DNA of 56,694 bases, from contig SLKA01000041.1 in the NCBI GenBank assembly GCA_007134845.1, forward strand, positions 1-56,694. Reading direction: 5' to 3'. This stretch comes from Balneolales bacterium. GTDB taxonomy: Bacteria > Bacteroidota > Rhodothermia > Balneolales > Natronogracilivirgulaceae. Position numbers and translations under genes: made by a program. Positions 9,268 to 14,232 of the stretch are shown here, one piece after another. The notes under the pieces are model-generated. The model was not told the origin of the DNA. It searched no databases and saw nothing but the letters and a program-made list of their open reading frames with translations. Position 1 is the first letter of the stretch. Each line of letters opens with the position of its first letter.

Positions 9268-9918
9268 TCAAATGTTTGAAATCCGATGCATTCCGCTTGT
9301 GTCTGGCAAGTTTCCAAATGCTGTTGTAGAACTCATATAGCTGTTTTTCGGGGGAGGAATCAGTTCAAATGGAATTTTATTTTGCAGATTGATTTCATTT
9401 TCCGCCAGGGCGTGAATTTTGGATTTTTTTTTCGCAAAAAGGACATCCTCGCTGTCATCAACCGGGAAAATGATGACGGTATCTCGATTCAGTTGCTCGG
9501 AAAGAGCATCTGCCAACGTGCGAAGAGGGAAGGGTGCTATCTTATGAGCATGATTGTCCCAAATCAGATTTGAAAGTACAAGATGGGTTCCGGCCGGGCG
9601 CTCTTCTATCCAATTGTTATCGATCCGAAGCTTTTCACCTGATTTCTGAATGATTTTTTTTTGATACCCGTTGACTCCAATACCGGATACGCCACTGTCA
9701 GCAAGAAGAGCTACGATCCTGTGATTCAAATCCCTGGTGCTCCTGATCACAGCATCCCCGCGCATAGTACCGGTTTGTATCAGTCGTTCTGTATAGTCGC
9801 TGTCTCCGTGCAGTATAATGCCCGAACAGCCAATCTGACGGGACATGGCTTCAGAGAAAGATTTCATGAAAAGAGAGTGATCCAGATGTTGGTAATCGAT
9901 GATTGCGATATATTTCAT
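9268..9918 (-). CDS. Amino-acid-kinase-fold protein, acetylglutamate-kinase-like, likely non-canonical
   Basis: The central part resembles N-acetylglutamate kinases. GIILHGDSDYTERLIQTG recalls the VHGGGPEI nucleotide/substrate loop. IRSTRDLNHRIVALLADSG recalls the helix following it, and a later HLVLSNLIWDNHAHKIAP recalls the PVISPIAYDEEGQLLNI strand. The canonical motifs are altered: the N-terminal KxGG glycine loop is replaced by AIIDYQHLDH, and HGGG is HGDS. At 216 residues it is also shorter than the usual ~260-300. It may therefore be a pseudo-kinase or may act on another substrate. No arg genes are adjacent. It is the last gene of a four-gene operon, 13 bases after the deaminase. Confidence 0.5.
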   Translation of the reverse strand: MKYIAIIDYQHLDHSLFMKSFSEAMSRQIGCSGIILHGDSDYTERLIQTGTMRGDAVIRSTRDLNHRIVALLADSGVSGIGVNGYQKKIIQKSGEKLRIDNNWIEERPAGTHLVLSNLIWDNHAHKIAPFPLRTLADALSEQLNRDTVIIFPVDDSEDVLFAKKKSKIHALAENEINLQNKIPFELIPPPKNSYMSSTTAFGNLPDTSGMHRISNI

Positions 9919-9931
9919 AGTTGCATTTCCG

Positions 9932-10735
9932 TCATGATTTTATGCGCTTCAGGTTTTGTGCCTTGAACTGATAGGGGAGTAAATCGGATACCATAAGGCG
10001 TGACAATTCAAATTCATTGTGATGAAGGAGTATTTTCCCGCTGCTCATGTGCTCAAGGAGTACCTGGCGGCAGGCCCCGCATGGACTCACATAGTCACTT
10101 TGAGGTGCATATACATGTATTTCCAGTAATTTATTTGCGCCGGATGAAATTGCTTTTACCAATGCGGTGCGTTCCGCACACAAGCCCTTTTGCCAGTCAG
10201 GAACCTCAATGTTCACCCCGGAGAAGATGCCTGCATCGGTTACCAGCAATGCAGTCACCGGAAAAGAGGAATAAGGTATAATACAGCGGTTTGTCAGCTC
10301 TGCCAGTCTCTTGACATCATTTTGCTCCTCGATCGTCTTAAAAAAAATATGCCGGGCACGTTTCTCCAGTGATGCCCGAGACATGCATTGCAGGCCAAAT
10401 GTCTCACACCAGAACGATATAGAATGCGATTCGAATGAGGCCCGTTGCGGCAGTATATTTCTTTCCGGATAGGCATCATCAATGCCACTTGATTTTGAAT
10501 CCTGCGCAGGATTACCGCCTTCAGGAAGCAATAATGTTACCGGTGCATCTCCTTCACTCAAACAGGAGAACAGGGCGGACTGCACAGACTCGACAGTCAG
10601 GGGAAAGGAGACATTCTCGACCCGCACCCCCGGATAATATGTGCCTGATTTGCCAATAATGATACAGGCCTCATTTATGCCGGAATATGGGACATAACTG
10701 CGGGAATATAATTCCTCCCATGAAATACTGCGCAT
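9932..10735 (-). CDS. Two-domain cytidine deaminase with degenerate N-terminal half
   Basis: The C-terminal half (about residues 140-245) is a cytidine/deoxycytidine deaminase domain. Its zinc ligands and proton-shuttling Glu are Cys186 and Glu188 in GLCAERTAL, and Cys219 and Cys222 in SPCGACRQVLLEH. It should convert cytidine or deoxycytidine to uridine or deoxyuridine. The N-terminal half (about 10-75) repeats the same fold pattern, YVPYSGINEACIIIGKSG then VENVSFPLTVESVQSAL, but Cys and Glu are replaced by Glu49 and Val51 and no PCxxC is present. In E. coli Cdd the catalytic copy is the N-terminal one, so the order here is reversed. The gene follows the GH3-like gene by three bases. Confidence 0.75.
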   Translation of the reverse strand: MRSISWEELYSRSYVPYSGINEACIIIGKSGTYYPGVRVENVSFPLTVESVQSALFSCLSEGDAPVTLLLPEGGNPAQDSKSSGIDDAYPERNILPQRASFESHSISFWCETFGLQCMSRASLEKRARHIFFKTIEEQNDVKRLAELTNRCIIPYSSFPVTALLVTDAGIFSGVNIEVPDWQKGLCAERTALVKAISSGANKLLEIHVYAPQSDYVSPCGACRQVLLEHMSSGKILLHHNEFELSRLMVSDLLPYQFKAQNLKRIKS

Positions 10736-10738
10736 AAG

Positions 10739-11752
10739 TCACTCCGGTTTTTTTAAATCAATAGTTAATCCGTCACCGATCAAATATAACGGTGGAATTG
10801 ACACCTGCAACCGGCCATTTATGGGGGCCGTTCCCAACATGGCATTTCCGACTGCGACCTGCTGGCGACGGTCGGGGGACCTACCCAGATCATGGACATC
10901 GACATCTTTCATGCTTTTAATGGCGTATGGAGTTTCTAGAGTAATGGCAATAATGGGCATTTCTGCCGGGAATAATGTGCTCATGAAAGGTGAGTTCGTA
11001 TCATCCAGTTTTATCTCCTCAGCGGTACGGATGGCAACAAGAGAAACGGCAAAAATCAGATCGGCGCCTTCAATACGTTTCACAGCCAGAAGGCTGTCGC
11101 ACTCACACTGCCCCGGATAGATTTCAACATGTGACAATTGCGTAAAATGTTCGTCAAGAATGCGGGAAAGATGATCGTCAGCCCTTCTCCGTCCATCAGT
11201 AATGTTCACTACAACGGCGTGGTCGTACCGTTCTGTCTCCCGGAGCAGGAGATCAATTTTGTTCCTGAGTAAGGTAATTAATTTTATTGCAATATGATCG
11301 GAGATCAGCCGATGCTCCCTGGTGTTAATTCGTTCCGGGAGCAGGCTCAAATCCACTATGTGCTCCCTGTCAAACAAACCGGCACGAATTTTCTCTGTCA
11401 GAATTCGTCTTACAGATTCATTGATCTTCTGTTCCGTAATTTCTCCGGCAAGCACAGCAAGCTGAACTTCGTCTATGGCTTCCTTTCCTGTTATGTATCC
11501 TTTCTGATATGCAAAGTGAGGATTTCCTGTCGCCGCAATCCCATGGCCGGCGTAAAATATGAAGCCTGTGGAATCATCATGTGTATAAAAGCCTCCGTGG
11601 GCAGCAACGACGAAAAGCTGGCCGATTTTTTGACGCAGTGTCATGTTTTTTAAAAGCCGGTCCGCATCATCTTTGATATCCGGAGCATGCCTGTCACCTG
11701 ATGCATGTCGATCATCCGAAGCAGTGATGCTGTCATGATTTCCGCGAATCAT
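10739..11752 (-). CDS. Glycoside hydrolase family 3-derived protein lacking the catalytic core
   Basis: The 337-residue protein has clear GH3 beta-N-acetylglucosaminidase pieces, but not the whole barrel. Residues ~33-58 (LLKNMTLRQKIGQLFVVAAHG) are the family opening. Residues ~62-92 (TGFIFYAGHGIAATGNPHFA, then QKGYITGKEA) match a segment usually about 100 residues in. Residues ~94-150 (AVLAGEITEQKINESVRRIL) match the end of the barrel. The rest, through GRLQVSIPPLYLIGDGL, matches the GH3 C-terminal domain. By family knowledge about 60-70 residues are missing near position 60 and over 200 near position 92, including the region with the catalytic Asp and the substrate-binding KH motif. The frame is intact. 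It overlaps the acylase gene by four bases. Confidence 0.65.
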   Translation of the reverse strand: MIRGNHDSITASDDRHASGDRHAPDIKDDADRLLKNMTLRQKIGQLFVVAAHGGFYTHDDSTGFIFYAGHGIAATGNPHFAYQKGYITGKEAIDEVQLAVLAGEITEQKINESVRRILTEKIRAGLFDREHIVDLSLLPERINTREHRLISDHIAIKLITLLRNKIDLLLRETERYDHAVVVNITDGRRRADDHLSRILDEHFTQLSHVEIYPGQCECDSLLAVKRIEGADLIFAVSLVAIRTAEEIKLDDTNSPFMSTLFPAEMPIIAITLETPYAIKSMKDVDVHDLGRSPDRRQQVAVGNAMLGTAPINGRLQVSIPPLYLIGDGLTIDLKKPE

Positions 11753-14151
11753 GGTCGAAAATGTTGAATATTTTTAAAATTATATGTTGGAGGTGCAAAT
11801 AACTGCGTTGGTGGTCTGAGAGCTCCATCATTCCACAGCTGAAACTGATCACCGTAATGGTCGGAAAAAACATGACCGGACTGGCCGGTGCTCATTACGG
11901 AAAAGAATTTGTTTTCAGGCTGCAGCATCATAATGCGCTTCGAGGTTGTTGCTCCTGCCACTCCAATCGCATGGTTATAATTGAGATGAATTGCCTGCAG
12001 CGTATGTGGTGATCCGGATATTACCGCTTTCCCAGGGTTGAAAAGGTTGCGTTCTGCCAGTCTTGCCGACCGGCTGTTCTCTTGGGTTTTATTGAAAAGG
12101 AGATCCTGAAAGGAGCCGTCAACCACATGGTTCCATTGCCAGTCGTGAGGTTCATTTCCATATCTGTCGGACAAATATCTGACGGTCTCTGACATACTTG
12201 TAAAAATCCATTCCCTGTGAGTATAGGAATGACTTTCGGGCCAACGAGCCGGTTCAGATAAGAGAGTTGAAACAGCCGAGTAGGGAATCTGGCGGGACAT
12301 GAATATCATGCTCAACTCCCTTTCACCAAGGTATGCAAGATAAAGATTTCGGGCTGCATAATTGAGAAACAGCTGGAATAATGTAGCGGCAGTTTCATTC
12401 CGGCCAAACTCGTAATTCCAGTTCCGGAGGTAGGGGAGAGCCAGGCCAATAAAGGGGTCGTCAAGGTAATGCTCCAGGTGTGCGATAATCTGCGGTGTCA
12501 ATCGGGCCGCAAATTGCGATTCGGTGTCTCTATGCCATCTTGTAGTGATTTCAGCCTGGATTCGGTCATGGGGTGTTTGCCCGAGCAGTTCCAGCAGCCT
12601 TGCAGATCGATTCCAGGGAGGCGAGAACATGCACCTGTTGCCAACACGAGCCCTGGCAGAAGCTATTTGCCCCATAAAGAAAACAGGCTGTCCGTCAGAA
12701 TGCATCAGTTCTGCAAAGTGCTCGTTTGCAGGGGATATGCCTGATTCGGTATGGGTGTCTCGAATCCTGAGAGGGTGCGGATCCGTCAATACATGACCAC
12801 CTGTAAAACGTCCGGCCTGACCATCGGAAGTTGCATAAAGGACCTGCACAGCAGGAGATGTGATAGATGAAATTGCGCTTCGGAGCCGACCGGGACTATT
12901 GGCATAGCTCATCTCCATGTAAGCGGTTATATCTGCGGAATGTGATAATCCCGTCCATCCAAATGCCAGATAACGGTTTGTGTTTTCCGAAATGGCAACA
13001 ACAGGCCTGCCGTTTGCCTTTTTTGTGACAACCTGCACTTCACCGCCATTTTTAAGGGAAAGTATGTGCCGGTCGAGGGTGATTTCGTCCTGAAGGCGGG
13101 AATAAACCTCAGGGTCCGATTCCCATTCAACCGGCTCGGTCATCGGATCGGAAAAGAGTCTGCCGGTGAAAAAGTCACCATCATCATGTATCATTGGCTG
13201 CAATGCCCACGTCAAGGTTTCATTCTGACCGTAAATCATTGCCGGGAAGCCGGGTATGGTCATGCCGGCACTCTTGCCGCGATCGCTGGTGACAACCATT
13301 TCATATCCCTGGTCAGGCAGTTCCAGAACAGATTCCCTGCTGATGTAGACCATGCTGAGCGGTTCCGGGCTGTGTCGTGACAGGGCCATTCCGACTCCGG
13401 GAGAACCTGTATTCATCGGCTTGACCGGAGCCGTAAATGACAGGAAGTCATCAAGCAGCAGATCATAGGAAACTGCATCGAGAACCGGTTGATCAGGGCC
13501 AAACATAACCTGGTGGGCTGCCTCCATTCCGGTAAGTGCACGTGTTACTGCACCGTCCTGAAGAAAATGGAGTGGTGCGTATGCCGGTTTTGTCCAAAAA
13601 GCCTGCTGATGTTGCCATGCCCACAGCAGCTGCACACCAATGGAATGCCAGGGCTCCCAATGAACAGGGCGTGCATCACTCAGTGAAAACTCAACCGGCA
13701 AATGCGGCTTGTTTTGGCTGACGTAATAATTGACCCCCCTGGCGTAGGCTTCAAGCAGCTGCCGATTTGCGGGCGGTAATTGTTCAAAGGCCTTTCTGGC
13801 TATATCACCAAATGAAAGCGTAAGATAAAAACGGTCTATGTCAATAAGACCACCGTCAATTTCCCTTGAATGTAATCCTTCGAGTTTGTATTGCTGTAAT
13901 GTCATCTGCCAGAGACGATCACGGGCGTGGAGGTAGCCCATGGTCATCAACAGGTCTGTTTCATGACTGGCAGTTATATGTGGTATCTGGTAGTCGTCCC
14001 ATTCAATGATAACTTCTGCTTTCAGGTCAGGAAGTCTTGCAGAATCATCAAGCGAGGGAACAACTCTGTAAAAAGTCCAGTAAACCGACAATCCGGAGAT
14101 CACCAAAATCAGTATTATAAACAGGACAGTGATTTTAAGTGCGGATTTCAT
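11749..14151 (-). CDS. Penicillin acylase family protein (Ntn hydrolase, S45)
   Basis: This 800-residue protein belongs to the penicillin/acyl-homoserine-lactone acylase family. Members self-cleave into alpha and beta chains and hydrolyse amide bonds outside the cytoplasm. An N-terminal membrane segment spans about residues 7-28. The alpha-chain motif is GYLHARDRLWQMTLQQYKLEG. The beta chain probably begins at Ser250 of TGSPGVGMALSRH. Families normally read GSNNWVV there, so the nucleophile may be kept but its surrounding Asn-Asn-Trp is not. TIPGFPAMIYGQNETLTWAL then follows the family pattern. The ATG at 14151 precedes the membrane segment and is preferred over a TTG at 14199. It heads the operon with the GH3-derived gene. 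Confidence 0.8.
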   Translation of the reverse strand: MKSALKITVLFIILILVISGLSVYWTFYRVVPSLDDSARLPDLKAEVIIEWDDYQIPHITASHETDLLMTMGYLHARDRLWQMTLQQYKLEGLHSREIDGGLIDIDRFYLTLSFGDIARKAFEQLPPANRQLLEAYARGVNYYVSQNKPHLPVEFSLSDARPVHWEPWHSIGVQLLWAWQHQQAFWTKPAYAPLHFLQDGAVTRALTGMEAAHQVMFGPDQPVLDAVSYDLLLDDFLSFTAPVKPMNTGSPGVGMALSRHSPEPLSMVYISRESVLELPDQGYEMVVTSDRGKSAGMTIPGFPAMIYGQNETLTWALQPMIHDDGDFFTGRLFSDPMTEPVEWESDPEVYSRLQDEITLDRHILSLKNGGEVQVVTKKANGRPVVAISENTNRYLAFGWTGLSHSADITAYMEMSYANSPGRLRSAISSITSPAVQVLYATSDGQAGRFTGGHVLTDPHPLRIRDTHTESGISPANEHFAELMHSDGQPVFFMGQIASARARVGNRCMFSPPWNRSARLLELLGQTPHDRIQAEITTRWHRDTESQFAARLTPQIIAHLEHYLDDPFIGLALPYLRNWNYEFGRNETAATLFQLFLNYAARNLYLAYLGERELSMIFMSRQIPYSAVSTLLSEPARWPESHSYTHREWIFTSMSETVRYLSDRYGNEPHDWQWNHVVDGSFQDLLFNKTQENSRSARLAERNLFNPGKAVISGSPHTLQAIHLNYNHAIGVAGATTSKRIMMLQPENKFFSVMSTGQSGHVFSDHYGDQFQLWNDGALRPPTQLFAPPTYNFKNIQHFRP

Positions 14152-14232
14152 CAAAGGGGAAAATATGTGTAAGTTTAAGATTGCTGAAAGAATGCACAAA
14201 TTACGAATTCTCTATAAGAACCGTTCCATTAA

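Follow-up and report, generated by a model that had tools for sequence, protein, structure and literature searches.

An eroded GH3 lipoprotein gene with an open reading frame, a probable pseudogene in progress in an operon of an uncultured Balneolales genus

The window analysed here, a stretch of 56,694 nucleotides from the metagenome-derived genome of a Balneolales bacterium, carries on its reverse strand a stop-free open reading frame (ORF) of 337 codons, located between a penicillin-acylase-family gene and a cytidine-deaminase-like gene (Table 1). The ORF is an eroded relic of a glycoside hydrolase family 3 (GH3) gene, and its stop codon is separated from the deaminase ATG by 3 nt. The deaminase-like protein displays an unusual order of domains, a weak PF08211 match (residues 11-63) preceding the catalytic PF00383 (residues 143-228), and this order is kept in the congeners and in other genera of the family. 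The 216-aa protein encoded further downstream adjoins the deaminase gene at the loci examined. A scan of the window for tRNA and Rfam families returned no matches.

Table 1. Positions, in the window, of the eroded GH3 gene, its parts, its deletion junctions and its neighbours
Feature	Positions	Strand	Evidence or remark
Eroded GH3 ORF, 337 aa	10739..11752	(-)	Syntenic ortholog of 600-aa GH3 genes
Penicillin-acylase-family gene, intact, upstream	11749..14199	(-)	PF01804, 5.3e-89
ATGA overlap of the acylase gene stop and the GH3 relic start codon	11749..11752	(-)	
N-terminal stretch without lipoprotein signal	11672..11752	(-)	Hydrophobic stretch and Cys of all intact orthologs missing; exact alignment uncertain
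In-frame N-terminal GH3 fragment (DDADRLLKNMTLRQKIGQLFVVAAHGGFYT)	11582..11671	(-)	Protein alignment
170-nt deletion junction, short direct repeat CATGA	11575..11582	(-)	170 nt absent in alignments to close orthologs
Out-of-phase segment of 42 nt, HDDSTGFIFYAGHG instead of AMRIPQATYFTPAMG	11540..11581	(-)	Nucleotide alignments
1-nt deletion restoring the original frame	11539..11540	(-)	Orthologs ATGGGTATT, window ATGGG-ATT
543-nt (181-codon) in-frame deletion junction, GARGCC direct repeat	11477..11483	(-)	Removes nucleophile and Asp-His dyad
Retained barrel end and C-terminal GH3 domain	10748..11476	(-)	58-62% identical to congeners
Termination/re-initiation site	10733..10747	(-)	Shine-Dalgarno-like CCGGAG; GH3 stop TGA 10739-10741; cytidine deaminase ATG 10733-10735
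Cytidine-deaminase-like gene, intact, downstream	9932..10735	(-)	Profile matches and gene comparison
Next cluster gene, 216 aa, conserved	9268..9918	(-)	Pfam/NCBIfam: nothing above cut-off

At the same locus, 7 congeners and one related genus (G013) encode a full-length GH3 lipoprotein of ~600 aa, with open frames of 613-685 codons in the congeners and 613 in G013. In each of the 7 congeners, this GH3 gene is also what the C-terminal part of the relic matches best. Since all the genomes keeping the GH3 gene share the same gene order (acylase, GH3, cytidine deaminase, 216-aa gene), the relic represents their ortholog at its original position rather than a stray copy. The ACCATGA of the acylase/GH3 overlap is also kept in the 7 congeners retaining the gene. 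According to public records, the congeners are metagenome-assembled genomes of Balneolales/Balneolaceae, the majority belonging to one series labelled CSSed. Residues 61-598 of one full-length ortholog align with B. subtilis NagZ/YbbD structures (3BMX, 4GYJ, 3LK6; E ~1e-73), and the intact orthologs match PF00933 at ~1e-83 (9e-84) as well as PF01915. Like NagZ/YbbD, a full-length ortholog of the relic keeps the lipoprotein signal, the KHFPGHGDTDVDSH motif and VTDGM. Judged by these motifs, the ancestral gene is of the secreted NagZ/YbbD type, a GH3 lipoprotein predicted to belong to the beta-N-acetylhexosaminidases. In a tree of three neighbouring proteins, the window genome is sister to G002 and G004 (support 1.0), two species in which the neighbours are present and the GH3 gene is gone, with only 61 nt between the acylase and deaminase genes.

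Residues 91-335 of the relic (~245 residues) are 58-62% identical to the GH3 proteins of congeners, and relic and orthologs have the N-terminal motif MTLRQKIGQLFVVAAHGGFY in common; the identity of the C-terminal part and the shared locus establish common descent, in agreement with the initial annotation of a GH3 relative. Compared with NagZ/YbbD, the relic retains the barrel start, the barrel end and the C-terminal domain and differs by the absence of the export signal, the dyad, the nucleophile and most of the barrel. In the protein alignment with orthologs, 57 codons are gone after GGFY and 181 before the last barrel helix, the latter stretch holding both VTDGM, with the catalytic nucleophile Asp, and KHFPGHGDTDVDSH, the Asp-His dyad motif of GH3 N-acetylglucosaminidases (general form KHFPGHGx4DSH; PMC4974736). 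The loss of the stretches with the catalytic Asp and the sugar-binding His, claimed initially, is thus confirmed, and so is that of the signal peptide, the best 15-residue hydropathy at the N-terminus being 0.09 in the relic versus 2.2-2.9 in intact orthologs. With most of the (beta/alpha)8 barrel of PF00933 deleted, a Pfam search of the relic retrieved no family even at E = 1, and NCBIfam gave weak partial GH3 matches only, of at most 37 bits versus cut-offs of 666 to 1350. An AlphaFold2 model of the relic (mean pLDDT 43) is uninformative, as an intact ortholog modelled from an equally shallow alignment reached only 38. No copies of the deleted stretches were found in the rest of the window, which agrees with the initial view that the catalytic core is missing. 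The intact paralog proposed as a check exists in the sense that other, intact GH3 genes are present in the genome (C33, C28 and C102), so that redundancy with them is plausible, whereas a search of the genome for a second ortholog found none. Any protein made from the relic could not work as a GH3 enzyme.

The retained pieces had been described as joined without a frameshift, which the nucleotide alignments contradict. In alignments to congeners, 170 nt are dropped in the best alignment (split as 154 + 16 in L067; the alignment to L065 is covered in part), and since 170 mod 3 = 2, this deletion shifts the frame. About 40 nt further on, a 1-nt loss turns ATGGGTATT into ATGGGATT, and because the 42 nt read out of phase are followed by a return to the original frame, the two losses cancel. 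This 42-nt segment matches the 8 orthologs at 28-36 of 42 positions out of phase versus 22-30 in phase, the best of 300 shuffles reaching 24-26. Residues 58-71 of the relic (14 residues) are therefore the out-of-phase reading of DNA which, in all 8 intact orthologs, encodes AMRIPQATYFTPAMG or a close variant, and the supposed middle GH3 fragment, GFIFYAG, is out-of-frame sequence resembling GIMFFSG by chance. A codon alignment had suggested that 14 and 43 codons were deleted in frame, a reading discarded once the nucleotide alignment showed the 170-nt and 1-nt losses. A scan of the C-terminal part for more hidden frameshifts found none. Short direct repeats such as those at the ends of the two large deletions are typical of slippage deletions. 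The initial proposal of a recent in-frame deletion product holds as far as deletion is concerned; the deletions are several, one of them frameshifting and then compensated, and the lipoprotein signal was lost in addition. The relic's deletion, which the initial annotation suggested looking for in related genomes, is absent from the 9 other congeners, the family and the GTDB contigs searched. Two cancelling indels separated by a short out-of-frame stretch recall the mutually compensatory frameshifting pairs described in vertebrate and insect coding genes (PMC8935012), with the difference that here one indel is 170 nt long, in a gene that is dying. The relic is also a warning that a compensated frameshift can lie hidden in a stop-free ORF containing GH3-like pieces, and that a fragment resembling a barrel strand can be out-of-frame sequence.

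Constraint on the remnant appears relaxed. Of 121 columns without variation among the other orthologs, 17 are altered in the relic, versus 16 of 362 in three neighbouring genes (Fisher p = 0.0007), a violation rate ~3 times that of the neighbours, and the changes in the retained part include G273E, W291R, P170L and S158L. The same test applied to four intact congeners (L061, L066, L067 and L063) showed no excess. The ratio of the window branch to the rest of the tree is also highest for the GH3 C-terminal part (0.425), nine other genes ranging from 0.12 to 0.33 with the deaminase next at 0.33. A two-omega codon model of the C-terminal part, the dN/dS check initially recommended, gave an omega of 0.10 on the window branch and rejected omega = 1 (lnL -5040.9 vs -5035.9), but synonymous sites on this branch are saturated, so that its dN/dS is uninformative and cannot date the relaxation. 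Because of this saturation, the value of 0.10 probably mirrors mostly the time before the deletions.

Compared with the intact orthologs that occupy this locus in related genomes, the ORF bears inactivating lesions (the 170-nt, 1-nt and 543-nt deletions and the signal loss) and a remnant under relaxed constraint; an interrupted frame, another mark of pseudogenes, is lacking, as the 337 codons stay open through the compensated frameshift. From these sequence comparisons, the ORF is very probably a pseudogene in progress, a relic of GH3. A vertically inherited GH3 lipoprotein gene, in its original place, would have become dispensable in a sub-lineage of an uncultured Balneolales genus and been eroded by deletions between short direct repeats. 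The 170-nt deletion and the 1-nt deletion cancelling its frameshift, the 543-nt deletion stripping the active site and the loss of the lipoprotein signal would all belong to this erosion, function having presumably been lost before or along with the deletions.

Neutral decay should introduce ~33 stops per unit of neutral divergence, so that the open frame is compatible either with a loss within ~0.05-0.1 substitutions per site or with a frame under selection. Because 337 codons are open despite at least 3 inferred indels, the loss should be recent or the frame selected; the neutral chance that at least 3 indels sum to an intact frame is roughly 1/9 to 1/27, which counts against a plain pseudogene. 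The protein might thus be useless and its frame selected as the path by which ribosomes leaving the acylase gene reach the deaminase start, a reading that adds to that of a pseudogene and is not its opposite. We consider this tenable, at somewhat under an even chance; otherwise the open frame would reflect chance and recency. The spacing is that of coupled pairs, with the ATGA overlap, conserved in the genus, upstream and the relic stop 3 nt ahead of the next ATG downstream, and the frameshift was compensated within ~40 nt. Termination-reinitiation requires an overlap or a very short stop-start geometry like that of the relic (PMC10666635; also PMC6728339), and a spacing of ~20 nt nearly abolishes coupling in E. 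coli and Haloferax (PMC10666635). The relic resembles the systems of these two studies by its ATGA overlap and very short stop-start distance in an operon, and differs in that its coupling is deduced from spacing alone; coupling may be the cause of the open frame, a reasonable, unproven reading of the gene arrangement. Against it, the sister species get by with a 61-nt gap, the deaminase start of the window has its own Shine-Dalgarno-like CCGGAG, and the argument from the open frame is weak (about 0.01-0.1, a rough estimate). That a decayed enzyme gene persists as a mere ribosome bridge, in which selection repaired the frame and not the protein after a frameshifting deletion, seems unlikely. 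If the frame is indeed kept for coupling, it would offer a testable case of selection on a reading frame without selection on the protein.

The initial annotation also offered a retained non-catalytic scaffold, that is, a scaffold or regulator formed, after removal of the barrel core, by a now cytoplasmic C-terminal alpha/beta domain. The frame open despite several indels, the 58-62% identity of the C-terminal ~245 residues and the rejection of omega = 1 on the window branch speak for such a protein. Its export signal is gone, however, 14 of its residues are out-of-frame sequence, residues invariant in all intact orthologs have changed (G273E, W291R, P170L), Pfam detects no domain, and this form is absent from every relative searched, the sister species lacking the whole gene; we therefore regard a scaffold as improbable. 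Least probable of all is an assembly or consensus error hiding an intact gene in the organism: the genome is fragmented (141 contigs, 80.6% complete) and the compensated indel pair could be a consensus artefact, but the separate events lie at repeats of 5-6 nt, too short to mislead an assembler, the invariant-site excess is independent of the indels, the sister species are independently devoid of GH3 and the neighbouring genes are clean.

As a pseudogene in progress, the relic takes its place in a three-step loss series displayed by a single genus, from intact to eroded but open and then to gone with a 61-nt scar. The gene is missing at this locus in other genera too. Short gaps between the acylase and deaminase genes also occur in G012 (114 nt), G017 (62 nt) and G014 (56 nt), and in another genus (L112, G011:C284) a 268-nt gap keeps a decayed GH3 3' end (GRISINSKQPILSFPPMYKIGGGI). 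Considering the sister species together with these gaps and this 3' relic, loss of GH3 at the locus looks to have happened more than once. A GH3 ORF in G010 that looks short is truncated by the contig end. Progressive deletions, untouched neighbours and relatives with complete loss are features shared with bacterial pseudogenes that erode through deletion bias between conserved flanking genes (border-induced selection, PMC9748784, where the model is applied to human introns); the open frame of the relic is a further difference. The scars of the two sister species (L109 and L110, in G002 and G004) are equal in length, at 61 nt. That of L110 starts with ATGATTAAGGG, which resembles the old GH3 start, and that of L109 finishes with CCGGGGTGA, which resembles the old GH3 end.
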